Of a stretch of DNA of 40,544 nucleotides, positions 21,763-39,306 are shown piece after piece. Below the pieces are notes generated by a model. It saw nothing but the letters and a program-made list of their open reading frames with translations. It had not been told where the DNA came from and made no database searches. Source of the DNA: Cyanobacteria bacterium SIG27 (GTDB lineage Bacteria; Cyanobacteriota; Vampirovibrionia; Gastranaerophilales; Gastranaerophilaceae); NCBI GenBank assembly GCA_015152565.1, contig SUTT01000018.1, positions 1-40,544 on the forward strand, in the 5' to 3' direction. Within the stretch, counting starts at the first letter, position 1, and every line of letters begins with the position of its first letter. Both the position numbers and the translations under genes were made by a program.

Positions 21763-21764
21763 TT

Positions 21765-23492
21765 TTAAACCTCCCCTTGGGCATAAATAAATCTCAGTAA
21801 TTTATTTGTTAAATTATCAGTATACGATACTCTTGTGCGTGTGCCTCTTTGAATAGGGATACATGCAATAATATAATCACTATTAGTAGTCGTTACACAC
21901 TTATTACCGTAAGCACCTTGATCTTCTGCATATAGTGCGACTTGCGCTCTGCTTGTCGATGTGGTTGTACCGCTAAGCATAAAGTAACCATTAGCAGGAG
22001 CAGTATAAGTTGTATTATTTGCTCCCAAAGTTAAATCAATATATTTACTAGATGGCATAGCCCAACCACTTATTTGTGGTTTATCACTGTAATCAACCGC
22101 TCTAAACGGAGATTTTGGCAACATGTTTGTAAATGTGTTAATGCTTGTACTACTGTCATAATCATAAGTAAAAGAAAATATTGGTGCCATAAAGCGAGCT
22201 GACCAACTAGAAGTTGTCGCACCTTTATAAAACATCAGATTTGTTTTTGGATTATACCAAGTGGTATATGCTGTAGTTGGCTCTGTTTCACTTTCGATAT
22301 ATCTGTGTGCAATTCCAAGTAAACCATCCTCCATTATGAATATTCTAGCACAACCACTGTCTGAAGCATTAAAAGGATTAGTTGAAGTTGTAAGTTTTGT
22401 AGAAATAACTTCTATATTTTTCAAACTGCCATCTTCGTTTCTTCCGTTTGGGATTAGCGCCTTAATGCCTTTATCAATCCATGCTGTTGAAGCAAAGCAA
22501 CCCATGCTATTGTAAATTATGTCAACAGAAGTAGCGGTGCCATTAGTTCTGGTTAGAGAACATAGCGGAAGTGCAGTATTTTGAGTTGTCCAAGTTACAC
22601 CTTTGTCATTCGTATATTTAATAACATTGCTAGCTGTATCGTACCAAACAGCATAGTTAGCATTAAATGTTGGTGCAGTATTTCCTGAAAAAACAAGAGT
22701 TCTAATACTGTTTCTAGCATAACCATTAGTACTATAAAAGATTAACCATCCTGAAGAGCTCGACGTACTATTTGGGTCAGAAACTATCAGTTGTTTATCG
22801 CTATCAATGGTGACATAATCAAACTTGGGAGTTTGCCCATCAATTTCAAATCCATTAGGCACAGTTACAACTGACCCGGCTTTTAATGTTAGTACTCCAT
22901 CAGTAAGTTCAAGGTTAATTCTTTGTGGAATTTCAGTAATGCAGTTGGTGATTTGAACATTTTTATTAAATTTTTCAATTTCATTTTTAATATCACCTAA
23001 AATATTTAGTGATTTATCTGCATTTTCTTTTGATGTTATAGCAGCATTATTAATAGACTCCAATAAATCTTGCGGTGAATTTTTTGAACATTCTTCAACC
23101 TTTACACATAAACTCAGCTTTCTTTTTAAAATTTGAACAAGTCGAGTTAAATAATCAAAAGAATGCTCAACGGCAGAAAGATTTAAAAGCGAACTGTTAT
23201 TATAATCTGTTTCTTGCGTTGCAGGAATATCAAGTTCCAGTGAGATTTTTTGATTATGCTGCAAAATATCAAATTTTGAGCTGAAAATCGGAAAAGTGAT
23301 GTAACCCCCATTTTCACTATTGATACCAGAAACAACATAATCAATATCTTGAATTAATTTATGTTTATTTTCATTTTCATCAAACAAATAAACCGCTAGT
23401 TGCGATGGTTTATCAATTAAAAAATCAAACTCAAACTCAGTTGAACTCCCATTACCAATATAATTGTTAACAGGTAAAATATCGTATATCAA
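21765..23492 (-). CDS. Podoviral tail fibre
   Basis: 575 residues. The first 130 or so (start MIYDILPVNNYIGNGSSTEF, with EHSFDYLTRLVQILKRKLSL near 110) resemble the T7 gp17-type attachment region that docks on the tail. A short coiled region (about 140-180) leads to beta-rich, Ser/Thr-rich repeats with a WLIFYSTNGYARNSIR segment near 247 and a C-terminal block ending VSYTDNLTNKLLRFIYAQG. The distal part is the receptor-binding region and looks less AT-rich than the shaft, as expected for exchanged fibre tips. No C-type lectin or variable-repeat signature. Confidence 0.8.
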   Translation of the reverse strand: MIYDILPVNNYIGNGSSTEFEFDFLIDKPSQLAVYLFDENENKHKLIQDIDYVVSGINSENGGYITFPIFSSKFDILQHNQKISLELDIPATQETDYNNSSLLNLSAVEHSFDYLTRLVQILKRKLSLCVKVEECSKNSPQDLLESINNAAITSKENADKSLNILGDIKNEIEKFNKNVQITNCITEIPQRINLELTDGVLTLKAGSVVTVPNGFEIDGQTPKFDYVTIDSDKQLIVSDPNSTSSSSGWLIFYSTNGYARNSIRTLVFSGNTAPTFNANYAVWYDTASNVIKYTNDKGVTWTTQNTALPLCSLTRTNGTATSVDIIYNSMGCFASTAWIDKGIKALIPNGRNEDGSLKNIEVISTKLTTSTNPFNASDSGCARIFIMEDGLLGIAHRYIESETEPTTAYTTWYNPKTNLMFYKGATTSSWSARFMAPIFSFTYDYDSSTSINTFTNMLPKSPFRAVDYSDKPQISGWAMPSSKYIDLTLGANNTTYTAPANGYFMLSGTTTSTSRAQVALYAEDQGAYGNKCVTTTNSDYIIACIPIQRGTRTRVSYTDNLTNKLLRFIYAQGEV

Positions 23493-23949
23493 AATTAATA
23501 TCTCCTTTTAAAAAATAAAATAATTTATAGTCACTGTTATCTAAATCAAAAACTTTAAACCCAGCCCTTTTGAGCCATTTTAAAGAAGAAAAATTGGATT
23601 TATAAATAAAATTAAATAAAATATCATATTTTGTTTTTAAAATTTCTAGCTTTTCTAAAACATATTTATATAAATCTTTCTTGTAAAATTCAATTTCAGA
23701 TGTAGACAACAACCAAACTTTGGCAATTTTATATTCATCAATTTCAATTAAGCAAGCTCCGCCCATTGCAAGTGGTTTATCATTATCAGATGTTAAAAAA
23801 TAAGTTTGATTAATTGGATTTTCAGAAACATTTAAAATTTCGTCAACAAAATTAAACGATTTAATTACAGCTAATTCCTCGTAATCTTCTTTTCTTAAAT
23901 TGTTCAAAAAAGAACATAGACAATTATGGTTAATTTTCTTTTCAATCAT
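23467..23949 (-). CDS. GNAT-like internal virion protein (T7 gp13 position)
   Basis: 160 residues. A GNAT-like core is suggested by PLAMGGACLIE, KVWLLSTSEI and the SLKWLKRAGFKVFDLD segment near 125-140, the 'xxxFLxxxGF' end of the fold. It lies between tail tube B and the fibre, where T7-like phages carry gp13, an internal virion protein with a GNAT-like fold. Its stop overlaps the fibre start by 26 bp and its start touches the tail tube B stop. Enzymatic activity is doubtful. Confidence 0.6.
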   Translation of the reverse strand: MIEKKINHNCLCSFLNNLRKEDYEELAVIKSFNFVDEILNVSENPINQTYFLTSDNDKPLAMGGACLIEIDEYKIAKVWLLSTSEIEFYKKDLYKYVLEKLEILKTKYDILFNFIYKSNFSSLKWLKRAGFKVFDLDNSDYKLFYFLKGDINFDIRYFTC

Positions 23950-26006
23950 TATTCTTGCAATTCTTCAAGTGAAATTGTCGCACTAACTGCTAAAATATTA
24001 AGCGGAAGAGGAAATTTTTGAACAATTTTAATGTTTTCTTCTTCGGATGGACTTGATAATACACAAAATTCGACATTTTTGGTAAATAATTTTTCAGGAA
24101 AGTTTATGCTATCGTGGCATCTTGCGCTTTGACATAAAGTACCATTGTCATTTTCTATAAAAAAATCTTCTCGAGAATTTAAAATTTTAACTTCAATTTT
24201 ATTTAAATTTTTCTTGATACCTAAAGTTTCACTAGATTCAAAATTTAATGTTTCAAGAATAAATTCATAAGGTAAACCAATTAAAACTTTTTTAGCTTTA
24301 TATGGAAGCTTAACTGTGCCATTAATATCTACTTGAAGATTTTCAACAACTCCATTATCTAATAATGCACAAACCTTTTTAGAAGCCAGATGCCCTAATC
24401 CGGAAATTTCATCAACATAATTTTCAAAATTCTGAAAAATAGCACAATCTAAAAAGAAAGCGTCGTCTAAAGAATTTATAATTCTACTTTTAAAGCGTTC
24501 AACATAACGAACAGTTTCGTTATTTATTATTCTGTTTACAACAAAATATGCGATATCCTCATTGTTTTCTCTAATCGTTGTTACGCTTTCAAATTTTCCA
24601 TCAGTTTTATGAGTATGCCAAGCTGAAATTTTTTGCTTAGGGTTATAAGTAAGAGCGTTTAGAGAACCGTCGTCCATAACACACCATAAAATACGGTATG
24701 GTTCTTTTGAATATGCCATATCTACAATTTGCCTACCCTCAAACAAATGATTAGCAAACAAGGTCAATTCTTCACCATCATAAGAATCTGAAAGATAGTT
24801 AAACCCCAAATCACGAACAATATTACCGCCACTTTGGACAAATAAAACCATCGAACCTGATGTAACAGGCTTAATCTTAGATGAACCATAGTAAGATTGT
24901 AAATTGGCAACAGGGGTTGGAGTAGCGCAAAATACGCCATCAGAGCCATTTACTGCCCATTCAGCATTAGATGTCATTACGATTAAATCATCAAAGGGAA
25001 TAAGATGTTGAATGGTATTAGCGACATTATCGTAAATAGACATCGTAATGGCATCTGTCGGGTTTAATGGTCTTGAAATGTTGAAGTTTTTATTGGTAGA
25101 ACTCTGAGTTGCCCAAAAAGTTTGCGGAAAATTTTTTGAAGAAGCAAAAATCTTTCTTTGTTGAAAATAACAAACACAAGAAGGATTTTCACTTTCAAAA
25201 GGATTAGAAAATATCGGAGCACAAGAAGTTAAATCGGGCTCAATATTATTATCTTTAAAACTTGTTGAACTGCTTGTTCCAACATAACCAAAAATACCAT
25301 TAACAGCACGATAAATGTTATATTCAGAAGCATTCAAAACCCTATCCCAACTGATTGTAATATATTCGGAAGTTGTCCAATAAGCTTCTAAATGCCCATT
25401 TACGCTTACAGTTGCACTTCTAGTGCTTTCTTCAGAGGAATTTTTATCAACAGCACATACAACATATTGATATGTTGTCATATTTTCACTAGTATCACCT
25501 GTATATGCAGCTTTCACATTTAATGGAGCAGAAATTGATGGTTTAAATGATACCTTTAAAAAAGTCCAATTATCATGTGCTAATCGTGATAAATCATAAG
25601 GGGGATAATTTTTATGCACAAAAGTAATAATATCTGCTTGTTGAGCATAATCAAGCGAAAAAATATCTTCTTCGAGATATGGCGTTGAAACTTCATATAT
25701 TTCATTATTGGAATTTAGGATATATCCGCCATCTTTTATAAAGCGGAAATATTTTTCCCCAACTTCAATAACATAACTTTCATTAATATCAAACACAAAA
25801 GGAATTAATCTTGTTTTTTTATTTGAATGCTTAACTTCATTTAAAAATTCGAGCCCTGATCGATTTAAAACGCAACCTTCTTGCAAAACCATGCCATTTT
25901 GAAGGCTTTTAACCCCAAGAGAATATTGGTCTAAATCAACTCTACCTTGCAAAGATGGAGAAATAATTCCTTTAGAAAAAGAGTTTTGAGAAATTCTAAT
26001 ACCCAT
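23949..26006 (-). CDS. Tail tubular protein B (T7 gp12-like nozzle)
   Basis: 685 residues. The opening FSKGIISPSLQGRVDLDQY near 9-27 and GCVLNRSGLEFLNEVK near 45-60 are typical of the gp12-like tail tubular family, as are the following 'RLIPFVFDINESYVIEVG' strands. An inserted beta-sandwich (fibronectin-like, about 160-260: NVKAAYTGDTSEN...SEYNIYRAVNG) and the FFNQRKIFASS-like QQRKIFASSKNFPQ segment near 288 also fit. It forms the distal tail tube. Immediately follows tail tube A with 2 bp between. Confidence 0.85.
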   Translation of the reverse strand: MGIRISQNSFSKGIISPSLQGRVDLDQYSLGVKSLQNGMVLQEGCVLNRSGLEFLNEVKHSNKKTRLIPFVFDINESYVIEVGEKYFRFIKDGGYILNSNNEIYEVSTPYLEEDIFSLDYAQQADIITFVHKNYPPYDLSRLAHDNWTFLKVSFKPSISAPLNVKAAYTGDTSENMTTYQYVVCAVDKNSSEESTRSATVSVNGHLEAYWTTSEYITISWDRVLNASEYNIYRAVNGIFGYVGTSSSTSFKDNNIEPDLTSCAPIFSNPFESENPSCVCYFQQRKIFASSKNFPQTFWATQSSTNKNFNISRPLNPTDAITMSIYDNVANTIQHLIPFDDLIVMTSNAEWAVNGSDGVFCATPTPVANLQSYYGSSKIKPVTSGSMVLFVQSGGNIVRDLGFNYLSDSYDGEELTLFANHLFEGRQIVDMAYSKEPYRILWCVMDDGSLNALTYNPKQKISAWHTHKTDGKFESVTTIRENNEDIAYFVVNRIINNETVRYVERFKSRIINSLDDAFFLDCAIFQNFENYVDEISGLGHLASKKVCALLDNGVVENLQVDINGTVKLPYKAKKVLIGLPYEFILETLNFESSETLGIKKNLNKIEVKILNSREDFFIENDNGTLCQSARCHDSINFPEKLFTKNVEFCVLSSPSEEENIKIVQKFPLPLNILAVSATISLEELQE

Positions 26007-26008
26007 AA

Positions 26009-26602
26009 TTAATTCCTCGCATTTAAAAATTCATCAACATCATAATTTATTTCTTTGCTTTCATAAGCATTAATAACTCTTGCATGTTTTAAAATTTTAA
26101 TATATTTTTGCCAAGCATTTTCACCCTTTTGAACACTACCAGCTATAACATTAGCAGTCAGGGAAGCAAGATAGTGAGCTAATGCCATAGCAAATTCGCT
26201 TGTAAAAAATACTTCTTTTTCAACTCTTCTTGTATATCTTAATATAGGAACTTCAACATCAGTCAAAATGACACTATTTCCATTTGATAAAGTTGCAATT
26301 GAAAATTTTTCACAAAAATAGTTATCTTTTAAAAATAGTTCACGAGCAAACAAGCAATCATTTGGATAGTTAAAAGTAAACTTAAAACCACTCATCTTTA
26401 ATTGTTCTTCGCATAAAGAAAGCTCTTTAAATGCACTCGCAAAATTCCAATCAAAGTCTTTTAAAACATAATCTCTCGCAAGTTCATAATAGTTATTAAG
26501 CAAAATCGCCCTATTATCAACCGAATTTGGATTTTCCAATGGAGTTGAAACACCTAAAATATTAAGAGCAATATTAAAAATTTGAGCCTTTGATATAGTC
26601 AT
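26009..26602 (-). CDS. Tail tubular protein A (T7 gp11-like gatekeeper)
   Basis: 197 residues. IFNIALNILGV near 8-18, ARDYVLKDFDWNFA near 38-51 and YPNDCLFARELF near 79 are the standard signature of the gp11 tail-tube A family that sits between portal and nozzle. The start overlaps the stop of the gp14-like gene by one base. Gene order A then B is as in T7-like phages. Confidence 0.85.
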   Translation of the reverse strand: MTISKAQIFNIALNILGVSTPLENPNSVDNRAILLNNYYELARDYVLKDFDWNFASAFKELSLCEEQLKMSGFKFTFNYPNDCLFARELFLKDNYFCEKFSIATLSNGNSVILTDVEVPILRYTRRVEKEVFFTSEFAMALAHYLASLTANVIAGSVQKGENAWQKYIKILKHARVINAYESKEINYDVDEFLNARN

Positions 26603-27120
26603 TACAAGCCCCCTTTTTGTCTATCTTTATAGATGTCATACCAACTTTTTGAAACCTGAGCAGAATCATCCAAGACATTATAGGCAAAGTTTTTTAAAGA
26701 ATTTTTATATTGACGATTGTAATCTTTTGCTTGGTTAATGTAGCTATTCGCTTGATTAAAATATTCATTTGCTTGCAAATCATACTCTTTTTGAATATAT
26801 TTTGATTGTAATTGAGCTGAGTTCAGTACATCTTGATAATTATATTTGTTTGTTTGAGAATTTGTATCAAAATTCGAAGCAGCGCTTTTTGCTTGCAATT
26901 TAGCAACATCTTGCATGGATGAAATTTTTTCTAAGCGTGATTTTTCTATACCAATTTGCTTTTGCTTTAAAGCTTCATTTTGAGCAATTTTAGCGTTATT
27001 TAGCGCAACTTGGGTTCGATATTCGCTATTAGCTTTTAAATTTGAATAATCAGAAACCGACTTAGTGACAAGCCTGCCCGCTTGCAATACACCGCCAATT
27101 ATATCTGTAGGAGTACACAT
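26602..27120 (-). CDS. Internal virion protein, T7 gp14-like
   Basis: 172 residues, mostly alpha-helical and rich in Ala, Gln, Asn and Lys. It starts MCTPTDIIGGVLQAGRLV and then has a long coiled helix (about 30-150) with repeated QANEYFNQANSYINQAKDYN-type heptads. Short, Gln/Ala-rich helical proteins next to the tail tube genes are the gp14-type ejection proteins of podoviruses. The large partners gp15 and gp16 are not found nearby. Assignment rests on position and composition. Confidence 0.55.
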   Translation of the reverse strand: MCTPTDIIGGVLQAGRLVTKSVSDYSNLKANSEYRTQVALNNAKIAQNEALKQKQIGIEKSRLEKISSMQDVAKLQAKSAASNFDTNSQTNKYNYQDVLNSAQLQSKYIQKEYDLQANEYFNQANSYINQAKDYNRQYKNSLKNFAYNVLDDSAQVSKSWYDIYKDRQKGGL

Positions 27121-27175
27121 ATATAAACCTTTCTATTTTTTAGAAAAAGGTGGGCAAATGCCCACCAGATGAGAA

Positions 27176-27565
27176 CTATATTTCATGAATAGCTAAGCCA
27201 TTTCCGGCAATAACACCAGAAGTGATTTTGCCGGTTGTTTCGCTGCCATCGACAACAAAAACTAATCTCATATAACCTTTATTTCCTTTAGGAAGAAAAG
27301 TTATAGGAAAAGTTGAGCCAGCTTTTAAATTTTCCAAAGTCAATGTAGCTTGCGCTAAATTAATAGGTGAACTAAAAGCAGGTTCGTCAGAAGTCTGAAT
27401 TTTAACACTCAAAGAAGAAAGGCTGCTAAAATCTTCTACTGCTTGAATTACAACAGGAACAAAAGAAACATCATTTTTGCCAAAGGCAATCACATTTTGA
27501 GAAACAATTTCGCCTGAAGTAATTTCTTGTTTTTCACAAAATAAATTTTCATTATCTAATAACAT
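27176..27565 (-). CDS. Bbp16-family capsid cement protein
   Basis: 129 residues, all-beta. MLLDNENLFCEKQEI at the start, then Asn-Val-Ile-Ala-Phe-Gly, VKIQTSDEPAFSSPI near 54 and a final TSGVIAGNG segment fit the Bbp16 cement family described for Bordetella phage BPP-1, which bridges major capsid protein subunits on the head surface. It lies directly behind the major capsid gene, as in BPP-1-like phages. Recognition is by pattern and position. Confidence 0.75.
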   Translation of the reverse strand: MLLDNENLFCEKQEITSGEIVSQNVIAFGKNDVSFVPVVIQAVEDFSSLSSLSVKIQTSDEPAFSSPINLAQATLTLENLKAGSTFPITFLPKGNKGYMRLVFVVDGSETTGKITSGVIAGNGLAIHEI

Positions 27566-27577
27566 ATTATCTCCTTT

Positions 27578-28573
27578 TTAAACAACAACTTTTTCGTCAT
27601 TTCTAATTTGATCGGCGCATTTTACAGGAATCCCCAAGAATGTAACAACAGGTTTTCCTGCAAAATCATCAACTGATAATTTTACATTTGTTTTGTTCAT
27701 TGCTTGGAAATGCAGATGAGTTTGAATTGTATCATTACAATAAATTACAGTGTTGCCGGTTTTAGCAAAACGATTAATTCTATGATACGCTTGAACCATT
27801 AGTTTTAATAAATCTGGAGCATTTTCGCTATCTAAAGAATCAACGTCAATATTAGCAATACGACAAGTAGAACGAAAATCCCTAACAGTCATACCGATGT
27901 CCCATTTAAAGTGATCACGATAAACTTCATACATATTGCCATTAGAATCGGTTGCAGTTTGAGCACCTTTATCAGTATGAACCAAACCGGCAGATGAACC
28001 TTTTGGATATAATAAATGAGTATGTAAATCACCCCAAGTAATAAACCAAATTGAAGTATTGTTTTTGCCTGTTCCGCCGGCATTTAAAACTCTATAACCG
28101 ATTGAATTTTTATCATCAGATATTTTATTATATCTTGGAGCTAACCCATCAAACCCAGCAGGATTAGTGGCTTTAGAGCCATAAAAAATGTTTTGCTGAA
28201 CGGTATTATTCATGGATTCTAAAAACGCTTGTGCTTCATTCATTCTAAATTGTTGAGTATCACCCTCTAAATCAGCTAAAGATTTATCGACTTGTGAATA
28301 AACTTCAAGCATTCCTGTGGTGTCTGTAATTTGAGTATATTCTCCTTTGGATGAATTTACGCCTTGATAAAATTTTCTAAATTCAACTTCAGGTAAGCCA
28401 TTTCTAACCGTTGTTTTATGAGTTGAACCTTCGTTACACTCTCTAACTACCGCATCTTCAATCAATGAATTTGATTGAGCTAATAAATCGACAATAGCGC
28501 TTGCAGCTTTGCCGTTTTCAGTTTGCGCCAATTTGTCTTTTAAAGTTAAATAAGTATTTCCAACTATAGCCAT
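27578..28573 (-). CDS. Major capsid protein (BPP-1-like podovirus type)
   Basis: 331 residues. TLKDKLAQTENGKAASAIVD near 11-30, HKTTVRNGLPEVEFRKFYQGV near 52-72, GMLEVYSQVDKSLADLEGDT near 86-105, NTSIWFITWGD and KGSSAGLVH are hallmarks of the common HK97-fold podovirus major capsid protein family. GAGG ribosome site. The scaffold-like gene lies just upstream and the cement protein just downstream. Hundreds of copies form the head. Confidence 0.88.
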   Translation of the reverse strand: MAIVGNTYLTLKDKLAQTENGKAASAIVDLLAQSNSLIEDAVVRECNEGSTHKTTVRNGLPEVEFRKFYQGVNSSKGEYTQITDTTGMLEVYSQVDKSLADLEGDTQQFRMNEAQAFLESMNNTVQQNIFYGSKATNPAGFDGLAPRYNKISDDKNSIGYRVLNAGGTGKNNTSIWFITWGDLHTHLLYPKGSSAGLVHTDKGAQTATDSNGNMYEVYRDHFKWDIGMTVRDFRSTCRIANIDVDSLDSENAPDLLKLMVQAYHRINRFAKTGNTVIYCNDTIQTHLHFQAMNKTNVKLSVDDFAGKPVVTFLGIPVKCADQIRNDEKVVV

Positions 28574-28586
28574 TTTAACCTCCTAT

Positions 28587-29141
28587 TTAGCTATTTGTAC
28601 CGTATAAAATTTGCGCTGGAGTTAATTCTTCAACAACTGGTGCTCCACAGTGGGATAAATTATCCTCTTGTGACAATTCGCCAATCTTGTAAAACATTTT
28701 TATTAGCTCAGGATGGTAAACAAGTCCTGTTTTTTCTAATATTTCTTTTAATTTAGGCGAAGAAAATTCACTGTATGCACGATTAGCAAGACTCATATAT
28801 TGTTTTAATTGAGCAGAATTAACCTTAGGCAATTCAAAATCTTCATCAAACATTTGATGATAATTTAAAACTTTTTGTTTAAATTTTTCTTCATCATCCA
28901 TTTCATAAACAGCTTTTTGCTTTTGGGCCATTTCAAGAGCAAGTTCAAGCAAAAGCTCCAATGATTCTTGTGAAAGGTTTAATTTCTTTGCAATAGGGGA
29001 CAATTTATTCTCAAGTTCAACATCCCAATCAAAATCTTCCCTGGAAGAATATTTTGAATAATCGTATAAAGTATCGCTCTTTTGACCCTGAGTATCAAAA
29101 CTCATTCCAAGTTTAATATTATTATTTATTTCAGTTTGCAT
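28587..29141 (-). CDS. Scaffold-like capsid assembly protein
   Basis: 184 residues, acidic and helical. It has a Leu-rich helix LSQESLELLLELALEMAQKQ near 55-74, and the C-terminal ILEKTGLVYHPELIKMFYKIG near 139-159 is of the sort seen in phage proteins just ahead of capsid genes. Position directly upstream of the major capsid gene, size and acidity fit an internal scaffold. No protease motif seen. The 5' side faces the moron on the opposite strand, with about 50 bp between the two starts. Confidence 0.6.
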   Translation of the reverse strand: MQTEINNNIKLGMSFDTQGQKSDTLYDYSKYSSREDFDWDVELENKLSPIAKKLNLSQESLELLLELALEMAQKQKAVYEMDDEEKFKQKVLNYHQMFDEDFELPKVNSAQLKQYMSLANRAYSEFSSPKLKEILEKTGLVYHPELIKMFYKIGELSQEDNLSHCGAPVVEELTPAQILYGTNS

Positions 29142-29157
29142 ATTTATCCTTTCTGTG

Positions 29158-29166
29158 TGCTATAAT
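29158..29166 (+). promoter_or_regulatory. Extended -10 promoter of the moron gene
   Basis: TGcTATAAT (29158-29166), an extended -10, lies 26 bp ahead of the ATG at 29193; AAAGGGGAG (29176-29184) is the ribosome site. No good -35, as expected for the extended class. It gives the gene transcription independent of the phage late operon. Confidence 0.7.
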
Positions 29167-29192
29167 ATTTTTGTTAAAGGGGAGTATGTATT

Positions 29193-29621
29193 ATGAAAAA
29201 AGCTTTTTTAAATATAGCAATAGTTTTTGTCGCATTTTTTGTACCAAATCAAACATCTTTTGCGCAAATTCCATTTCCGCAAGCAATAGCAACTTGCGAA
29301 GAATACAGCCAAGATGGCACAATTGAATATAAAGGCGAAGCTTTTGATTTGACAATTACTCTCAATAAAGCAAAAGACAATAGATGCATATATAAAGAAA
29401 AAATTCATCAAAACAGAAGCTACCAAATGTTAACATGTGAATTTACCAAAAATCAGCTAGGTTTCTTATCCGATTCAATGACAAGATTTAACAAAGAATT
29501 TAAAAAACAAATCGACAAAAATAAAATATTTGAAGCGAAAATGACCACAAATGGTGAAATTTTCCAAAAATATTTAGTTAATCCAAACTATTGCAAAATT
29601 ACACATTCAAAAAGCAAGTAG
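29193..29621 (+). CDS. Secreted protein of unknown function, moron inside the prophage
   Basis: 142 residues on the strand opposite to all surrounding phage genes. A signal peptide is clear (MKK start, hydrophobic LNIAIVFVAFFV, cleavage near SFA/Q at about 24-25). The mature part of about 118 residues has four cysteines (for example ATCEEY, NRCIY, LTCEF, NYCKI), suggesting two disulfides, and ends in a basic SKSK tail. It has its own promoter upstream and a terminator at its end, so it can be expressed in the lysogen. This is the layout of a lysogenic-conversion (moron) gene. No domain recognised; activity unknown. Confidence 0.75.
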   Translation: MKKAFLNIAIVFVAFFVPNQTSFAQIPFPQAIATCEEYSQDGTIEYKGEAFDLTITLNKAKDNRCIYKEKIHQNRSYQMLTCEFTKNQLGFLSDSMTRFNKEFKKQIDKNKIFEAKMTTNGEIFQKYLVNPNYCKITHSKSK

Positions 29622-30521
29622 CTTTTTAAAATAGCTTTTAACTTTAGAATTGTCATCCTTGAAGATGGCAATTCTTCGTTTAAGAAGTTTGACTTTATCT
29701 TCTTCTTTTATTGTTTTATTTTGTTCTAGAAAATAAATAAAATCTGAATTAATTTGCTTAATAAAATCATATTTTTTAGAATTTTCTTTTAAATCAAGTT
29801 CTTCAAGCGCTGTTTTAATTAATGACATTTCATCTAAAAAAATTGTTTTCTTAATTGTTCTAAGGTTGTTTTGCGCAGTTTGAAAAAAGCGAATATCTTC
29901 TTGGTTTAATTTATTGTATTCTTGATTAAAATCAAGCTGCAAAAAATCATCAGTATTTTTTAAAATCAAGTCCCAAAATTGAATAAAATCATCATGGTTA
30001 CTTTTTAAAATATTTTCTTTTGGTAGATAATCTGTATCATCTTTTTCCAACACATTATTGAATTTAATACTAAATTCTTCAAGAAGAGATGAATATTCAC
30101 TTTTTTCAATTTGTTTAATTTCGGCTATCCAATTAATAGCGCAGATCATAGAATTATAAAGTTTTTGAACTTTATTTTTATCAAGCGAAAGCTCAAGAAA
30201 AAGATTATCGATAAATTCTTCAAAAATATCATCAGCCCAATTTATCAGCTCAGCATTGTAATGTTCTTTAACTTTTATGATTAACTCATCTTTTTTCTTT
30301 GAAATAAAATCGTTATCATCATAAAAAGAAAATGAATTTTTAATATATTGTGCTTCATGATTAAACTTTTTTACAACATTTTGCGCGTTAACTATTGCAT
30401 CTTTTGACTTTAAGTAAATATAACCATCTTGGGAATTATAGAGCAATTTATTAAATAATGATGTAATTTTATTTATAAATTCAAGATATGAAACACTAGC
30501 TACAAGATTTTTAACTGTCAT
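29607..30521 (-). CDS. Phage structural-region protein of unknown function
   Basis: 304 residues, predicted almost entirely alpha-helical, rich in Lys, Asn, Asp and Glu, with no membrane segment or known motif. It follows the portal gene by 9 bp and ends convergently into the moron (15-bp overlap). In this position other podoviruses may carry scaffold or internal head proteins, so it could be a capsid-interior or ejection component. That is a positional guess. Confidence 0.5.
   Translation of the reverse strand: MTVKNLVASVSYLEFINKITSLFNKLLYNSQDGYIYLKSKDAIVNAQNVVKKFNHEAQYIKNSFSFYDDNDFISKKKDELIIKVKEHYNAELINWADDIFEEFIDNLFLELSLDKNKVQKLYNSMICAINWIAEIKQIEKSEYSSLLEEFSIKFNNVLEKDDTDYLPKENILKSNHDDFIQFWDLILKNTDDFLQLDFNQEYNKLNQEDIRFFQTAQNNLRTIKKTIFLDEMSLIKTALEELDLKENSKKYDFIKQINSDFIYFLEQNKTIKEEDKVKLLKRRIAIFKDDNSKVKSYFKKLLAF
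29609..29627 (+). terminator. Terminator of the moron gene
   Basis: AAAAAGC (29609-29615), AAGTA loop, GCTTTTT (29621-29627). A 7-bp stem with a T-run, overlapping the moron stop codon and the last codons of the convergent 304-residue phage gene. Confidence 0.65.
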
Positions 30522-30530
30522 CTTTTTCTC

Positions 30531-32165
30531 CTAAATTACACCAAAACGAGCCAATAAATCAGATCCATAAGAATCAACCCCACCCATATTTTGAATAATC
30601 TGACTTCCATCTTTTAAAACTTGCATTTGATTAATCTGATTTTGGGAATTTTTTAGCTCTTGCCTAATTTTTTCAATTTCATCAGATGGAACAATTTGTG
30701 TTGGGTTAATATTAGCAAAAGTTGCATAATCTTCAATTATTTTTTCACCGTTTAATTTTGATTTCAAAATTGGATCAATAGAATTTGCAATATTTGATAC
30801 AAAAGTGGTAAATCTTTCAATACTTGCAATATTAATCACTTTTTGAGCCTGAGCCAAACTTGAAACAAACTCTATTTCAAACCTGCAATTTTGGTATTCT
30901 TTCTTTAATGGAGGTAAAATTCCAACTCTAATTTGTTCATCATAAATCCAAGAAAGAATTTGCCTTAAAGAACAGTGAATTTGTTCCAAAAGTGGCGATA
31001 AAAGAACCATTTTCTCTTCTTTAAGTTCATTAACCTCAGTCGCAGTTCTTCCACGCTCAGCGGTAGATAAAATCATTGCAAATAAATCGTTATAAAAATG
31101 CTCTTTTATAATTTGCTTTAATTCATCTTTTTCCTGTTTTAACTCTAATACCCTAGGATTTACTTCATAAACAGGGCTAATTCCTCGACCATTTTCATCT
31201 TCTTCAATATAGGCTCCCGGAACATCGGCTAATTTTTTATTTTTTAAACTAGCGGGACCTTTATACGTTGGACAAACTATCTTTTTAACTGCTTTAGCAT
31301 ATTCTTTAACCATTGTCATTAACTGTTTAACATCTGCTAAAGCATTAATTCCTGCCGAATCTTGCGGATAATCGCAATTACAGCAGCTTGAAGCCTCAAA
31401 AACCACAAAAGGAAATTTAGAAAAACCTTTGATTGATAAAAATTGATTTTTAGAAGATAAAATCACGACAGAAACAAATTTGGAAAATTTAGAACTAAGA
31501 CTTTTTGGTTTATGATATTTATTTTTTTCTACAAAATGAGTTAATTCAAACAGTTTTAGAGGGTTTTGCTTTGCGCATTCAACAATTTCAGCTGGCACTG
31601 TATCGCCAAACTTTTCGACGATATTTTTAGCAGTTTCCATATAAACTCGACAAAAAGTATCAATTTTTCCTTGTGAATTTTTAGCATAATAATATGAACC
31701 GATTGGTAAAACCTTAAAGTTTACAACATTATCATAATCAGGTTCAATTCCAACAGCACTAAAACCAAAAACACCGAGTTGTTTATAAATTTCAGGTAAG
31801 CATTGATAAAAATTTGAAGAATACAAAATTCTTCGTGTTAGCTCTTCTTGCTTAGCGCACCAATTTTTTAAATAAAAATCATTTGCTAAATCAATATTTG
31901 AAAAAGTAGTTTTAAACCAGCGGTTAGTTGGGCTTGTTGCACCCGACATCATACCTGAAGAAAAATTCCTTAAAGCAATCAAGGGAGTCGAATCGATAAT
32001 TTTTCTATTTTTAACAATTGGTTTTCTTGTGTTTCTTGCGATAAACTGAACACTTCGAGGCATAAAATAATCAGCCAATTCTTGCAAATCAGGCTTGATA
32101 ACATTGAAGATGTCTTCCATTTCTTTTTTTCTTTTTTGAAAATATTCAACTGTATAAAAAGTCAT
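30531..32165 (-). CDS. Portal (head-to-tail connector) protein
   Basis: 544 residues, matching the T7 gp8-like connector size. LADYFMPRSVQFIARNTRK near 31-49, NFSSGMMSGATSPTNRWFKT near 67-86 and GFSAVGIEPDYDNVVNFK near 133 are hallmark segments of the podovirus head-to-tail connecting family. TAERGRTATEVNELKEEKM near 366-384 is another conserved block. Twelve copies form the channel through which DNA is packaged and released. Small conserved gene upstream, 1-bp gap. Confidence 0.9.
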   Translation of the reverse strand: MTFYTVEYFQKRKKEMEDIFNVIKPDLQELADYFMPRSVQFIARNTRKPIVKNRKIIDSTPLIALRNFSSGMMSGATSPTNRWFKTTFSNIDLANDFYLKNWCAKQEELTRRILYSSNFYQCLPEIYKQLGVFGFSAVGIEPDYDNVVNFKVLPIGSYYYAKNSQGKIDTFCRVYMETAKNIVEKFGDTVPAEIVECAKQNPLKLFELTHFVEKNKYHKPKSLSSKFSKFVSVVILSSKNQFLSIKGFSKFPFVVFEASSCCNCDYPQDSAGINALADVKQLMTMVKEYAKAVKKIVCPTYKGPASLKNKKLADVPGAYIEEDENGRGISPVYEVNPRVLELKQEKDELKQIIKEHFYNDLFAMILSTAERGRTATEVNELKEEKMVLLSPLLEQIHCSLRQILSWIYDEQIRVGILPPLKKEYQNCRFEIEFVSSLAQAQKVINIASIERFTTFVSNIANSIDPILKSKLNGEKIIEDYATFANINPTQIVPSDEIEKIRQELKNSQNQINQMQVLKDGSQIIQNMGGVDSYGSDLLARFGVI

Positions 32166-32166
32166 T

Positions 32167-32361
32167 TTATTCTCCTAATAATGTCTTTTTAGTAGTTTTT
32201 GCCTGCTGTTCTATCCCATAAGCGGAAGTTAAGATATTCTGTCTAAAACCACCATCATTATTTTTAGACTTCTTGGTAGCATCAGCATCTGCTTCATGGC
32301 GAATAACAGGCTCAGGCTCAGCAATAGGTGGTGCTGAACTTGCACTTTTAGTAAAACACAT
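32167..32361 (-). CDS. Small conserved podoviral protein ahead of the portal
   Basis: 64 residues: a Cys-Phe start (MCFTKSASSAPP), a Pro/Glu-rich linker, then DADATKKSKNNDGG and a C-terminal NILTSAYGIEQQAKTTKKTL. Short proteins with this 'MCF-Pro-rich ... T-x-x-G-L/I ... KKTLLG' layout are common between the large terminase and portal in podoviruses. Function not known to me. AGGAG site; stop is 1 bp from the portal start. Confidence 0.65.
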   Translation of the reverse strand: MCFTKSASSAPPIAEPEPVIRHEADADATKKSKNNDGGFRQNILTSAYGIEQQAKTTKKTLLGE

Positions 32362-32377
32362 ATTTTCTCCTTTCTAA

Positions 32378-33700
32378 TTACTCAAAAACATCAAAATCTG
32401 TTTCAAGAATTTGGCTATATTCTTCTTTTTTAATAAATACCGTATTAAAACAATAATTAATCGCATAAAGCGCCATCATTGCACAATCTGCAAAATCAGG
32501 GCTTTCGTTGTGAATTTTTTTCATTTCTTTTTTATCTTGAATAGCTATCAAACCATTTGGTTTGAAAACTTTTTTAATATATTCAAGTTGTCTTATAGAA
32601 TTTTTATCAGTTAATTTTAAATATCCTTTTTCAATATAATCTCTCAAGGCCAAATATCCATCTGCCCGAGCATTAATTGCGTATTTTGAAATTGGTTTTT
32701 TAGCACCCCTGAAAGCAATTGCGCTATTGATTGCTTTTTGAACACTAACCCAAATGGGATAACCCAAACCATCGGCATCAATAATTAAACTTTTTGGATT
32801 CCATTGCGAATATAAGCTGATTATCTTTCCTTTTGTAATATCTGTATCAGCTTCAGACCAACTAACAGTATATTTTTCAAGCCAAACGCAATTATTTTGC
32901 TGGACAAAAAGTTTTGCAACGCATAAGTCTGCTCCAGATGCAGACAAATCAACACTCATAACAGAATTACAAGAATAAGATAAATCAACTTCATATTCTA
33001 AATTTATCGCCTTATCAAGCATATCAGACGATAATAAAAATTCGTTATTATTACTCAAAGGATACCCCAGCCAAATATGATTGTAATCGTTAATATTGGT
33101 TTCTTTAGAAACTTGCGCTTCATGGAGAATTTTTTTATCAACAAAAGGATTGTCAAAATAGCAAATATTAATATGTAAACAGTCATCTCTTTTAGCACAA
33201 AAATTATAAACAGAATCAAAACGAGTGTATCGATTCATAGTAAAAATTATTACTGAATTTTTCTTTCTGATAGTAGGAACAATGATATCTAAAGTTGATT
33301 TAGTAATTGATTGAGATTCGTCAATCCAAAGAATATCGACACCCTCTAATCCTTTAATATTAACACTACCTTGCTCCCTAAAACCCTTAAAAAATATCTT
33401 AGAAGATGTGGTTTTATGAATCAAACTATCTTTTTTTATGATATAAGGCAAATTATAGTTTTCTATTAAATCAAGAAAAACAGTTTTAACTGATTCGTTA
33501 ATCGAATTTTGAATTTCTCTACCACAACAAATTCTAACTCGTCTATTTTCACAAATATATAATAGAAATCTGGCAACGCTTTGCGTTTTACCTGAGGCTC
33601 TACCGCCCTCTAAGAGAAAATAACTGTAGCGATTGAAATTTAAAATAAAAGGAATTAATTTTGGCGGAATATTTAATATTTCAGGAAAAACTAAATCCAT
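32378..33700 (-). CDS. Terminase large subunit
   Basis: 440 residues, the packaging motor. Walker A is LEGGRASGKTQS (residues 30-41), Walker B ILWIDES (123-129) with the catalytic Glu. The nuclease domain shows MSVDLSASGADL (Asp251), SLIIDADGLG (308/310) and SPDFADCAMMAL near the C-terminus, the three acidic clusters of the RNase H-like fold. It cuts and translocates phage DNA into the procapsid through the portal. The small subunit-like gene lies 3 bp upstream. Confidence 0.92.
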   Translation of the reverse strand: MDLVFPEILNIPPKLIPFILNFNRYSYFLLEGGRASGKTQSVARFLLYICENRRVRICCGREIQNSINESVKTVFLDLIENYNLPYIIKKDSLIHKTTSSKIFFKGFREQGSVNIKGLEGVDILWIDESQSITKSTLDIIVPTIRKKNSVIIFTMNRYTRFDSVYNFCAKRDDCLHINICYFDNPFVDKKILHEAQVSKETNINDYNHIWLGYPLSNNNEFLLSSDMLDKAINLEYEVDLSYSCNSVMSVDLSASGADLCVAKLFVQQNNCVWLEKYTVSWSEADTDITKGKIISLYSQWNPKSLIIDADGLGYPIWVSVQKAINSAIAFRGAKKPISKYAINARADGYLALRDYIEKGYLKLTDKNSIRQLEYIKKVFKPNGLIAIQDKKEMKKIHNESPDFADCAMMALYAINYCFNTVFIKKEEYSQILETDFDVFE

Positions 33701-33702
33701 TT

Positions 33703-33987
33703 TTATACAAAATCTTCTCCAATATTAAGCTTCAATTGCTCACCATCAATCAAAATTTCATTCATTTTAACAACAGACCCAACTTGAATATTTCCGTTTT
33801 TGTAAAGACCTGCAATTTTTGCTTTATTTTCAATAGCTCTTAGTGCAGCAGAAATATTAGGGTTTCCATTTTTGTCATAGCAATTTAGTGCTATATTTTT
33901 TAACTCATCAAATTCTTTTATTGCATCGTTAATTGTATAATTATTTTTAGCTATGTTTGAAATTGAATTTTGATTTTCATTATTCAT
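33703..33987 (-). CDS. Probable terminase small subunit
   Basis: 94 residues. A helical middle (NISAALRAIENKAKIAGLY near 45-63) resembles the central helix of phage small terminase subunits, followed by a short strand-rich tail ending in a basic/acidic patch. It directly precedes the large subunit (3 bp), where small subunits nearly always lie. No clear helix-turn-helix is visible, so the call is mainly positional. It overlaps the previous gene by 8 bp. Confidence 0.6.
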   Translation of the reverse strand: MNNENQNSISNIAKNNYTINDAIKEFDELKNIALNCYDKNGNPNISAALRAIENKAKIAGLYKNGNIQVGSVVKMNEILIDGEQLKLNIGEDFV

Positions 33988-34360
33988 TTTCTATTTTTTT
34001 AACTAAAATTTTATTCCCCCAAAAATCGCTTGCATATTGTTTTATTCCAACAATTTTACCATTTCTTTTAATTTCTTTATTAATTCCAAATTTAAATCCA
34101 TAAGGAGCTTTGTACTTTGTTTTAAAACCTAAAAATGTTGAAACGATATCTTTTTTCAATCTTTCTTTAATTTTTTTAGCGCCACCAGAGTAGTAATATT
34201 TTTCAAAATATTCATTTTCGTTTTCAACACAAGAATATAATGCCATTTCTTTGTTGCAAATTGGACAATTTGCAAGGTAAAGTTTTCTTTTTGTTTGATT
34301 GTCTTTATCTAATAAAAACCAAATATCTTGAGCCTGAAAAACACTATTACAATGACGCAT
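33980..34360 (-). CDS. Zinc-ribbon phage protein of unknown function
   Basis: 126 residues with a good GAGG ribosome site. CPICNKEMALYSC near 32-44 resembles half of a zinc ribbon or HNH-type knuckle (C-x-x-C, with a further Cys nearby). The C-terminal half is Lys-rich with GFKTKYKAPYGFKFG near 78. First gene of the visible late module; it could be a small nuclease-like or packaging accessory, but His-Asn-His residues are not evident. Confidence 0.5.
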   Translation of the reverse strand: MRHCNSVFQAQDIWFLLDKDNQTKRKLYLANCPICNKEMALYSCVENENEYFEKYYYSGGAKKIKERLKKDIVSTFLGFKTKYKAPYGFKFGINKEIKRNGKIVGIKQYASDFWGNKILVKKIENE

Positions 34361-34416
34361 AAAACCTCAACAAAAACAGTTATCCTATCCTTAACTTCGT
34401 CAGCCTCGTTTCTTAA

Positions 34417-34569
34417 CCTGAGCCAAGCAAGCTTAGCCAGACTTGGCTTAGCGAGCGCAGACGAGGGCACAAGGTGTGTAAGCAATGGTACAGCAAGCGA
34501 TGAGCTTGGTGGACTATTGCGAAACCGTACCCCATACAAGCGAGCTTAGCCAGACTTGGCTTTCTCAGG
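34417..34569. repeat. GC-rich element bounded by inverted repeats, containing direct repeats
   Basis: CCTGAG+CCAAG at the left end (34417-34427) and CTTGG...CTCAGG at the right (34555-34569) are inverted copies. A 20-bp direct repeat, AGCTTAGCCAGACTTGGCTT, occurs at 34430-34449 and 34543-34562. AGCCAAG/CTTGGCT also gives a local hairpin at 34421-34448. The segment is roughly half G+C in a genome of about 30%. It has no convincing gene; MITE-like or a dispersed repeat is possible. Confidence 0.5.
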
Positions 34570-34682
34570 TAATACAAATTTGAATTGTCCGAAATCGATA
34601 CATTTAAATTAACACATTTTTTAAAAAATACACCGTTTGTATGAGGAAATTAAAAAGAAAATTTTAAAAACATGTAATTTAG

Positions 34683-34839: not shown

Positions 34840-34916
34840 GGCGGGTGTCGCCAAGTGGTTAAGGCCTCGGATTGTGGTTCCGATATTCGTGGGTTCGAAC
34901 CCCATCACCCGCCCCA
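34840..34916 (+). tRNA. tRNA-His (anticodon GUG), with G-1 and encoded CCA
   Basis: Acceptor GCGGGTG pairs with CACCCGC; the extra 5' G (34840) pairs with C73, the identity pair of tRNA-His. Anticodon loop ATTGTGG lies on a CTCGG-type stem, T arm GTGGG TTCGAAC CCCAT, CCA at 34914-34916. The antisense of its 3' three-quarters encodes the C-terminus of the adjacent recombinase, marking it as an attachment site. Confidence 0.95.
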
Positions 34917-36391
34917 TTTTTAACATTTTTCCAATATTTTAGCTTATAAAATATTGGAAATAATTCTATATTAAGGGTTTCGCCATCATAAGTTAGGGTT
35001 CGGATGCAAGTTTGCACAATTTCTCTTTTTATTTGAGGAGTGGCTAATCTAAATAATTCAGGCAACTGATTGCAGAAGCTCATTATTAGACTTAATTTGT
35101 CATATAAAATTTTGCTCTTTTCCATTCTTTCTGTGAGCTTTATTTCTAATTTGTTGAGTTCGGATGCCCAATTTGCCATCATGCCATTCCAATCTTCTTC
35201 GGTCATGCCATAAGGTAATTTACCATCTAATTTATCTGAATAACTTTTTTGGATGCGTGATTTAATTGTTTCAATTTTCTTCTGCATCTCAACAGGACTT
35301 TCTAAACTATTTTCATAATCCTTAATAGCTTGTAAAAGTTCTCTTGCTTCGTTTTTCATTGCTTCTATTTCAGCAGGTGGAATATAAATATCCTCAAGCA
35401 TATCAATAAATACTTTATCAAGTTCTTCTTGCTTGATAGCCTTACATCCACATCTGCATCTGTAATAAATATATTCGCCTGAATTGTGTGCACCTCTCTG
35501 CATTTCTGCTGATAACTTATGCTCACAACATTTGATACACTTAATCATATTAGTATATGGGAAGAATATATTGTGGCTTTTCGGCTTTTTCCATCCAAAC
35601 ATACCCTGCACTTGATAAAATAATTCTTTTGAAATTAAAGGCTCATGTTTGCCTTCATAATAATTTCCTTTATATTCTACTGTGCCAATATAAAAACTGT
35701 TCTTGAGCATCCATTCAAATTTTCTTGGTGGAAATTTTTCACCTGTTTTTGGATGCTTAAATCCATCATAATATAATGTTTCGCCTAATCTTTTTAAAGA
35801 ATAATTGCCTGTTGCATACAGCTCAAATGCTTTTCTGATAAAAGGTGCTGTTGCTTCATCTATAACAATTATCTTTTTCTCATCAGGCATTGTGTAATTC
35901 TTATAGCCAATCGGAGCTTTGCAAGGTCTTATACCTTCTCTAGCTTTCTGCTCCATTCCCATTGAGGTTCTTTGAGAAATTTTTCTTCTTTCATATAAAG
36001 CTGTGCCTTTTGTAATCCATCTTAAAAGTTCACCTTCTGGACTATCTTCATTGCATTCTGTTGCAGATAATGGGATTACTTTGCATTCTTCAAAAAACTT
36101 TCCTAATACAGCATAATCATATTCTGTACCTCTTGATATTCTTTCCCATTTCCAAAAGATAACAGCATCAACTTCTGCTGTGTGTTCTCTAACCCAATTC
36201 ATCATTGCTTGCAGTTGTGGTCGGTTTAAGTCTTTTGCGCTTATGCCTTCTTCTCTGAAAACATTTATAACTTCATATCCTTGTGATGCAGCAAAATCCC
36301 TATCTATTCTTTCTTGTCCGTTTAGTGAATAGCCTTTTGTTTGTTCCTCTGTGGAAACTCTAACATATATTACACAATTCTTTCTTAACAT
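34859..36391 (-). CDS. Large serine recombinase (integrase)
   Basis: 510 residues. The resolvase domain (about 1-150) has the catalytic serine in IYVRVSTEEQ (Ser13), GISAKDLNRPQLQ and the FWKWERISRG segment near 84-93. A Recombinase domain (about 165-265: APIGYKNYTM...) and a zinc ribbon (CIKCCEHKL near 285, CRCGC near 313) follow, then a coiled coil (about 345-425). The last 19 residues, GAGDGVRTHEYRNHNPRP and the preceding Asn, are the antisense of tRNA-His including its CCA, so the gene reads into its own attachment site. It catalyses integration and excision by double-strand exchange with a phosphoserine link. Confidence 0.92.
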   Translation of the reverse strand: MLRKNCVIYVRVSTEEQTKGYSLNGQERIDRDFAASQGYEVINVFREEGISAKDLNRPQLQAMMNWVREHTAEVDAVIFWKWERISRGTEYDYAVLGKFFEECKVIPLSATECNEDSPEGELLRWITKGTALYERRKISQRTSMGMEQKAREGIRPCKAPIGYKNYTMPDEKKIIVIDEATAPFIRKAFELYATGNYSLKRLGETLYYDGFKHPKTGEKFPPRKFEWMLKNSFYIGTVEYKGNYYEGKHEPLISKELFYQVQGMFGWKKPKSHNIFFPYTNMIKCIKCCEHKLSAEMQRGAHNSGEYIYYRCRCGCKAIKQEELDKVFIDMLEDIYIPPAEIEAMKNEARELLQAIKDYENSLESPVEMQKKIETIKSRIQKSYSDKLDGKLPYGMTEEDWNGMMANWASELNKLEIKLTERMEKSKILYDKLSLIMSFCNQLPELFRLATPQIKREIVQTCIRTLTYDGETLNIELFPIFYKLKYWKNVKNGAGDGVRTHEYRNHNPRP

Positions 36392-36443: not shown

Positions 36444-36614
36444 TTATTTGCAGCAATCTAACTTGATATTTGTTTCAGGGTTTAAAGAAATTTCTCTGAA
36501 ACCCACTTGGGAAAATAGAGTGATAAATCTCAACAGCCTGCTTCTGTTTTCTTCTTCTGAAACATCTTCTCTTGGCTTAACATAATTAACTTTTATTCCA
36601 CAAGCAGTACTCAT
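36444..36614 (-). CDS. Small protein of unknown function between methyltransferase and recombinase
   Basis: 56 residues, start MSTACGIKVNYVKPREDVSE, end LNPETNIKLDCCK. Its ATG overlaps the stop of the methyltransferase-like gene (TAATG), and AAAGGAG lies 7 bp upstream, so translation is well supported. A VSEEENRSRLLRFITLF helix near 18-35 occupies the middle. Paired C-terminal Cys. An excisionase-sized gene next to an integrase is tempting, but no DNA-binding motif is visible. Confidence 0.6.
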   Translation of the reverse strand: MSTACGIKVNYVKPREDVSEEENRSRLLRFITLFSQVGFREISLNPETNIKLDCCK

Positions 36615-37150
36615 TAAAGCAATCTCCTTTGGTTAAAGTTTTTAAAATCTCGTATCTCAATTTGATTAGGCAAGAAATCTCTACAAAAATAAGCAGCACA
36701 AAAATTGATTGGTTTTGCTTGACTTTGGTTTTTAAAATCCATACGATCTTCAAACATTAAAAGCTGCATCCCAATATTTCTGAATAATAATTTTGGTGCT
36801 CTATCATTAAGCCATGTTAAAGTCATAAGCAGGCAGAATGGTTTATTAAAGCTGATTGCTCTTTTGAAAATATCTGTTTTATTTGTGAATGGTGGGTTTG
36901 ATATAATTACATCCCAATTTTCAGGCTCATAATTATAGAAATTTTGCCCATAATCAATATGAGAATTAACAACATTATAGCCGTATTCTCTGAATACTTT
37001 TACAAATTCGCTTTCTTCTGTATCAAAAGGACACCATATAATCTTATCCTTGAAGGGTGGAAGAAATTCAAGCAATGGTTCTACTCCGTATCTGTGAGTA
37101 TAACATTCATCATTCTTGCCTTTAGAAGTAAATAAAAATTCGTTAGTCAT
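36614..37150 (-). CDS. N6-adenine methyltransferase-like protein
   Basis: 178 residues. The catalytic NPPF motif appears in DVIISNPPFTNKTDIF near 79-94, with an upstream WCPFDTEESEFVKV strand near 39-52 where the SAM-binding acidic loop is expected (no clear FxGxG). These fit the small adenine-N6 methyltransferase-like proteins often found in phages and integrative elements. It may modify DNA of the element; no partner endonuclease is seen. Overlaps the preceding gene by 8 bp and the following by 1 bp. Confidence 0.65.
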   Translation of the reverse strand: MTNEFLFTSKGKNDECYTHRYGVEPLLEFLPPFKDKIIWCPFDTEESEFVKVFREYGYNVVNSHIDYGQNFYNYEPENWDVIISNPPFTNKTDIFKRAISFNKPFCLLMTLTWLNDRAPKLLFRNIGMQLLMFEDRMDFKNQSQAKPINFCAAYFCRDFLPNQIEIRDFKNFNQRRLL

Positions 37151-37382
37151 TACCTACTCCTATAATTATTTCTTTTGCTTTATTATCTATTACAACAGGC
37201 AGATTAAAAAATTCTGCTATGTTTACTTTACCCCTACTTCTTAAAAAAATTCTGTTCAATGTTTCTGCATGAGAATTATTTATAATAATCATTTTAGGTT
37301 TTAATCCTGCTGATTTTACTCTGTTTATTTTTTTCTGCATTTCTTCAAAGAGTAAATAAAAGAAAAGATTAGTTGCTGGCAT
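37143..37382 (-). CDS. Small protein of unknown function
   Basis: 79 residues, basic (KINRVKSAGLKPKMIIINNSH near 18-38), with a short strand pattern (VVIDNKAKEIIIGVG) at the end. It begins inside the stop of the upstream gene through a GAGGTGCAAGATGCCA junction (37377-37392 in + coordinates) that is repeated exactly at another gene overlap (38521-38536). No family recognised. Confidence 0.55.
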   Translation of the reverse strand: MPATNLFFYLLFEEMQKKINRVKSAGLKPKMIIINNSHAETLNRIFLRSRGKVNIAEFFNLPVVIDNKAKEIIIGVGND

Positions 37383-38282: not shown

Positions 38283-38526
38283 TATTTTCTACCTCATAAT
38301 TTTCACAATATACTTTTGTTGTTGCAACATTTTCTTTATCAATAAAGTGTATGTGCTGATTGTTGCAATAATCATCATCATACCAACTTGCATTTTTGCA
38401 TTTTGTGCAATCCATATATGCACAGTATGAGTGCCTATCTTTTGTGTATCTTTTACCTTTTGCTTCTGCTAATACTGTAATTGGCATATCGTTGTCATTG
38501 CTGATTATTCTAATTAGTCTTGGCAT
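38269..38526 (-). CDS. Small cysteine-rich protein
   Basis: 85 residues from ATG 38526. Longer upstream starts are possible, but this one has GAGGTG 5 nt ahead and is shared with the repeated junction. Composition is Cys- and His-rich: HSYCAYMDCTKCKNASWYDD near 35-54 with C-x-x-C and further Cys/His (CNNQHIHF), a likely zinc-binding fold. Overlaps the membrane protein gene ahead of it by 17 bp. No family recognised. Confidence 0.55.
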   Translation of the reverse strand: MPRLIRIISNDNDMPITVLAEAKGKRYTKDRHSYCAYMDCTKCKNASWYDDDYCNNQHIHFIDKENVATTKVYCENYEVENNGNG

Positions 38527-38836: not shown

Positions 38837-38844
38837 TATTCACC

Positions 38845-39301: not shown

Positions 39302-39306
39302 ATTTA

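Follow-up and report, generated by a model that had tools for sequence, protein, structure and literature searches.

The window, by which we mean the whole stretch of 40,544 nucleotides analysed here, carries a block of phage-like genes (20268–34360) that lies between a host HD-domain gene and a tRNA-His gene. The phage-like genes, named P1–P28 from left to right, are all on the − strand within the block, where they encode lysis, tail, internal virion, capsid and packaging proteins; left of 20199 are host genes for surface sugars and the envelope. Inside the block, on the + strand, is the gene that concerns us most, the open reading frame at 29193–29621, which we call Q. The genome of the window is referred to as G000 and its genus (Candidatus Gastranaerophilales) as g1. 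The features of the locus are, in order of position:

19384–20199, + strand: host HD-domain gene, the downstream border of the block
20268–20663, − strand: P1, peptidase M15 endolysin
20656–20898, − strand: P2, small protein containing a single hydrophobic segment, in what would be a holin-like position
20886–21347, − strand: P3, DUF1353/tail assembly chaperone-like protein
21313–21762, − strand: P4, conserved protein
21765–23492, − strand: P5, tail fibre-like protein
23467–23949, − strand: P6, T7 gp13-like internal virion protein
23949–26006, − strand: P7, tail protein (phrog_376)
26009–26602, − strand: P8, tail protein (phrog_394)
26602–27120, − strand: P9, internal virion protein-like (phrog_418)
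27176–27565, − strand: P10, Bbp16-like capsid protein
27578–28573, − strand: P11, major capsid protein, MCP (PF20911 GP7, E 3e-126)
28587–29141, − strand: P12, scaffold/protease-position protein, divergent from Q (phrog_458 ‘protease’)
29158–29166, + strand: extended −10 promoter element of Q, TGCTATAAT (TG-C-TATAAT), exact TGnTAnnnT in 27 of 28 genomes
29176–29184, + strand: strong ribosome-binding site of Q, AAAGGGGAG, from the sequence
29193–29621, + strand: Q, predicted exported four-cysteine protein, 142 aa, ATG start, from the ORF list and conservation
29607–30521, − strand: P13, likely a shortened, relocated relative of a tail-end (ejection-position) protein, convergent with Q
30531–32165, − strand: P14, portal / head-tail connector (PF12236, E 3e-91)
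32167–32361, − strand: P15, small conserved protein
32378–33700, − strand: P16, large terminase (TerL), ATPase and nuclease motifs intact
33703–33987, − strand: P17, small terminase (TerS), directly upstream of TerL
33980–34360, − strand: P18, first gene of the block
34570–34594, − strand: 25-nt leader box TTTCGGACAATTCAAATTNGTATNA, upstream of P18
34841–34916, + strand: tRNA-His(GTG), the upstream border of the block

The original prediction concerned the span 29158–29627, which takes in the promoter of Q plus its ORF, and most of its structural description agrees with what we find. The 142-residue ORF is present with its ATG start, it runs opposite to all of its larger neighbours within the block, and it lies, as described, between P13 on the portal side and P12 at the scaffold position. 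The N-terminus (MKK...SFA) is hydrophobic and signal-peptide-like as judged by eye, and the protein carries the four cysteines that had been noted. The extended −10 promoter and the ribosome site are likewise both in place; a sigma-70 scan did not list this promoter, since a good −35 match is missing. The conserved stretch just upstream of the −10 element is the start codon and ribosome-binding site of P12 on the opposite strand. The terminator that had also been claimed for Q was not seen: the scan returned none (0.4 expected in shuffled sequences), and the 3' ends of Q and P13 overlap by 15 bp in the window, and by 4–23 bp in 24 of 27 genomes, which leaves no intergenic room for one. The ORF of Q is real, and its signals are conserved beyond chance.

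Each of the 27 other genus genomes contains Q, at 44–64% identity, which makes 28/28 with the window. The gene is always antisense and in the same slot, its four cysteines are invariant across these genomes, and its dN/dS is 0.054–0.137 in seven pairs. Outside the genus, 39 genomes matched and 20 were fetched, and a profile confirmed Q in 19 of the 20. In an alignment of 24 sequences (8 sequences of the genus type and 16 relatives outside it, 3 of the 19 having been left out as fused ORFs), Phe28 and the four cysteines do not vary. Among the genomes of the bacterial family, the Q family as a whole is found in 150 of 288, which fall in 15 of 41 genera, and G000 itself has two weaker paralogues. 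The five host loci scanned have ordinary neighbour genes, and no common pathway was seen among the ten genes surveyed there (ATP synthase epsilon, MnmE, radical SAM, HD, TPR); such housekeeping surroundings suggest that these relatives serve the envelope in a general way. A search for homologues in host chromosomes and phages, as had been proposed, supports the view that the gene is foreign to the phage, with no match to the family in 50,697 phage records, none in 72,556 plasmid records, and Q absent from 20/20 related elements of other genera (the loci come from 18 genomes, out of 32 outside g1 that matched a capsid search). Because it belongs to a host family and is absent from related elements, Q looks host-derived and built into the block before the genus diversified. 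As a test of an origin at tRNA-His, the stretches read around 19 host Q loci were inspected, and none contained tRNA-His.

Two arrangements of host relatives can be mentioned here. In three genomes of genus g2 (L090, L097, L100), one reading frame encodes a cysteine-rich domain of the CxxCxxCC type followed by the Q domain. In genus g29 (L091 10394–11149, L095 476–1225), a host Q relative adjoins an HD-domain gene that resembles the HD gene at the border of the block in the window (125 bits).

Searches with the sequence of Q gave no match in Pfam and a best E of 0.016, at chance level, in PHROGs; the best E of its profile against PDB sequences was 0.014 over 52 residues and was not accepted as a match. 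The AlphaFold model is confident (pLDDT 87, pTM 0.75) and consists of four antiparallel strands, helices and a final strand. Structure searches gave no significant match to this fold (best Foldseek E 0.75), and the best VIA-align results (Z 6.1, rmsd 3.3, 80 aligned, residues 25–105), which are to Whirly and Pur-alpha type proteins, are below a telling level. Proteins of these types bind single-stranded DNA. The likeness seen in the model is a weak fold lead and would, together with the constant basic charge described below, fit DNA binding by Q.

The block as a whole occupies a fixed locus. It is 13.0–14.3 kb long in nearly all genomes with both ends in view; G005 has a block of 12.4 kb with no recognisable P13, and G010, with an insertion, has one of 15.6 kb. 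Insertions are seen in some blocks of the genus, and most hold structural, packaging and lysis genes plus Q and nothing else; no integrase or replication genes were found within the block. In 22 of 28 genomes the tRNA-His lies upstream; the contigs of the remaining six stop within 483 bp. Next to the last block gene comes the HD gene in 14/28 (of 19 contigs that continue beyond this gene, 14 have it there); elsewhere it is on the tRNA side in two inverted cases, replaced by other genes in four and out of view in eight. Where seen, the MCP is 79–93% identical within the genus, and its nearest matches elsewhere are the epsilon15 group and other phages (44–49%). The 25-nt leader box occurs once per genome in 27/28 and twice in G017, while a reversed-pattern control gave 0 in 27 genomes and 2 in one; the box is presumably the control site of the late operon, a candidate operator or RNA leader. 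Ahead of P18 the window has extra, partly repeat-like sequence (approximately 34413–34569) that separates this box from another conserved one, AGAAACGAGGCTGACGAA; G005, G006, G012 and G013 have such sequence as well. The blocks of one clade (G017, G018, G021, G025) have exchanged a lysis gene, with a different gene of 147–148 aa in place of the M15 endolysin.

Inheritance of the block can be judged from substitution rates and from trees. Its genes have dN/dS values of 0.016–0.344, and in most pairs their dS is close to that of the host genes alongside; the pairs used in these comparisons (7 and 10) are close relatives picked by the analyst. Block dS is similar to that of the unlinked AlaRS in most of the 10 pairs and higher in G001/G014 and G003/G009, two exceptional pairs in which the AlaRS dS (0.19 and 0.30) is well below that of the block. 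Trees were built from 19 or 22 of the 28 genomes, the remainder being without a gene. Two comparisons of block and host trees gave Mantel r values of 0.77 and 0.71, reached by 0 of 999 permutations, and 3 and 5 of 19 splits in common (random mean 0.17). Strongly supported conflicts amount to seven pairs per comparison; five of the seven involve G004, for which AlaRS and RpoB disagree in placement, and two concern the placement of G005 or G003/G009. Vertical inheritance with some recombination would best fit this partial agreement. Between Q and P13, co-evolution was not significant (Mantel r 0.31, reached by 69 of 999 permutations).

Beyond the genus, the capsid family is present in 52 of 288 genomes of the bacterial family: 20/20 of the g1 genomes sampled, with the rest mainly in genus g41 plus scattered cases. 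Taken by itself, g41 has the capsid family in 41/41 genomes. Among the g41 genomes listed there is no match to Q; g41 thus has the block without Q, and Q is dispensable for such blocks in general. Members of g41 (L181–L187, L189) have a fixed GTA-like block, with a short TerS where this was recovered, and no Q. In G223 and G281b, the sequence that precedes the portal gene yielded no recognisable terminase gene, perhaps because the locus is split. L195, L196 and L197, from genera g7, g35 and g29, have nearly equal ORF lengths throughout, which could mean an active phage that crosses genera or contamination of the assemblies.

The block TerS is 94–106 aa long in 23/23 genomes where it was recovered and has no N-terminal domain; in phage-type relatives TerS has 155–173 aa, and the N-terminal domain is Pfam Terminase_2 in three of the four scanned. 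In an alignment, the block proteins miss exactly this N-terminal part, and P18 overlaps the TerS start, so there is no space for the domain. Walker A, Walker B and the nuclease Asp of TerL are invariant in 24/24. The same loss from TerS is found in the fixed g41 blocks (4/4 recovered) and in G039; a g41-like block in G029 has kept a long TerS. In excerpts of PMC6854486 and PMC11841831, the TerS of known GTAs is reported to be without this domain.

As defined in excerpts of PMC9662315, a GTA has proteins derived from a tailed phage, a genome fully endogenised in the host chromosome and mostly vertical inheritance; it also packages mostly random host DNA, has a genome of its own too large for the head, and delivers DNA to cells. 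Here the MCP, portal, TerL and tail genes are of tailed-phage derivation, and the block is endogenised: it is found in 28/28 genus genomes, the flanks in view are host genes, and it has no integrase. The ComEC family is also present in 28/28, which shows only that DNA uptake is possible. Excerpts of PMC7360931 describe a lower amino-acid carbon cost in alphaproteobacterial GTAs than in their phage homologues. This signature, which is outside the definition, was not seen in the block, where the genus mean is higher in 7/7 proteins, by 0.007–0.416 carbons per residue. As far as such comparison goes, the block is a GTA candidate rather than a member of the class; we consider it probable that it is a GTA.

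We interpret Q as a host-derived gene for an exported protein that now belongs to the core of a GTA-like remnant of an epsilon15-type phage, present throughout the genus and passed on mostly by vertical descent, and give this reading a probability of about two in three. It builds on the fixed slot and locus, the purifying selection, the loss of a TerS domain beside an intact TerL, the conserved promoter and the host family, all of which are read directly from the sequences. Very probably the block is domesticated and non-mobile, with Q among its core genes; that the role of Q is linked to the GTA, rather than that of a passenger host gene, falls slightly short of an even call. Under this interpretation, the particles made by the block would be filled with host DNA, with no pac site required. 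The promoter of Q faces the late operon, and late transcription would oppose Q expression; being antisense to and convergent with that operon, Q would be expressed chiefly when a cell is making no particles. The protein would be exported to the periplasm and act at the envelope, where it might shield non-producers from particles or endolysin, or aid recipients in the uptake of DNA. An either-or device, in which producers shut Q off and other cells export it and are thereby marked as protected kin or competent recipients, is an unlikely extension of this scheme.

The most serious alternative is that Q is an ordinary envelope protein whose gene was trapped in the block, along with P13, by one ancient rearrangement, and has stayed because Q and the block are each needed, though functionally unlinked. 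In favour of this, the family is at ordinary loci in many genera, g41 has the block and no Q match among the genomes listed, and Q adjoins a gene that is out of its usual place. P13 is likely homologous to the tail-end protein (its profile E values, 3e-4 to 3e-27, being weak to moderate), which in phage-type elements sits after the tail genes and is 702–747 aa long; its relatives have 436–484 aa in g41-type blocks and 300–327 aa in the genus, where they are located between the portal and scaffold genes, beside Q. Shared inheritance alone would explain the fixed slot. However, Q has never been lost or moved in 28/28, and the mature protein is always basic, with a pI of 8.6–9.3 in all 28 genomes compared with 4.2–9.4 in 19 host relatives outside the genus, which hints at specialisation. 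We regard the trapped-protein explanation as somewhat doubtful.

PBSX-like killer particles offer another comparison for the block, with Q as an immunity protein for the kin of producers. Head, tail fibre and endolysin genes are kept under selection, the fibre and lysis genes rank with those that differ most from species to species, and an exported, separately expressed Q would suit immunity. Nonetheless, both terminase proteins have been maintained in the way known from DNA-packaging GTAs and no toxin-like gene was seen, and we think a killer particle distinctly improbable.

In the original prediction, Q was a lysogenic-conversion moron, which supposes an active temperate phage. Phage morons have an independent promoter, lie on the opposite strand and bring cargo foreign to the phage, and Q has all three features. 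A serine recombinase (34859–36391) and small phage-like genes including a dUTPase (36614–40485) just beyond tRNA-His could also be taken to favour this view. However, the antisense strand of tRNA-His supplies the C-terminus of the recombinase, and most relatives lack this gene or have a fragment of it, with matching limited to the tRNA-derived stretch (G019 has a recombinase of 40% identity in the same place). Since it reads into tRNA-His and is mostly unmatched in relatives, the recombinase is most likely part, together with the dUTPase region, of a separate integrative element that shares this tRNA. The block itself is at one locus in 28/28 without integrase or replication genes, its TerS has no DNA-binding domain, and Q is fixed in its slot. 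We reject the moron identity because a gene present in 28/28 genus genomes is not accessory, and the expected terminator was not detected; the idea is highly improbable. The observation that had been named as telling against it, that all relatives with the same head genes carry Q as a conserved virion component, is borne out for carriage within the genus (28/28) and not outside it (0/20 elements). A place for Q in the virion is itself unlikely in view of its signal peptide. Highly improbable too is that the antisense promoter alone matters, through transcriptional interference with the late operon, and that the protein is incidental: the convergent overlap with P13 in 24/27 and the conserved promoter would suit this, but the low dN/dS of Q and its invariant cysteines indicate selection on the protein.

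The preferred reading, of Q as a core gene of a GTA-like remnant, would have some wider consequences. GTAs are known from few lineages, and if the block is one, it would represent a new branch in two genera (28/28 and 41/41 genomes) from a non-photosynthetic group related to cyanobacteria. How packaging changes on domestication could be followed by comparison with the closely related phage-type elements that the family also contains, and Q, secreted and separately transcribed, is a candidate for the recipient or protection side that is missing from GTA systems. Our literature search found no report of a GTA in Gastranaerophilales and none among the best-ranked matches for Melainabacteria and Vampirovibrion- names, with subscription papers and preprints outside its scope; the matches listed on prophages or domesticated prophages in Gastranaerophilales or Cyanobacteria contain nothing on such a block.

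Among known systems, epsilon15-like temperate podoviruses have MCP, portal and tail genes in common with the block; they are phages, whereas in the block integrase and replication genes are absent, TerS is truncated and Q is present. Compared with phage morons, Q has no detected terminator, is in every genus genome and lies outside a mobile prophage. We know of no embedded antisense secreted gene in RcGTA of Rhodobacter capsulatus. That agent (PMC6854486) has a different phage ancestor, the MCP of the block being nearest the epsilon15 group and other phages. A close parallel is FpGTA of Faecalibacterium, reported in 2026 as the first podovirus-like GTA-like element; excerpts of PMC12946183, in which Gastranaerophilales-type bacteria are not mentioned, likewise describe a podovirus-type operon fixed across a gut genus, with packaging, portal, scaffold and capsid genes and a TerS without an obvious DNA-binding domain. 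FpGTA has two separate loci, and its particles and packaged DNA have been demonstrated, whereas the present block is a single locus of 13–14 kb known from its sequence. The block also differs from FpGTA in carrying inside it a gene for a secreted protein of a host family.
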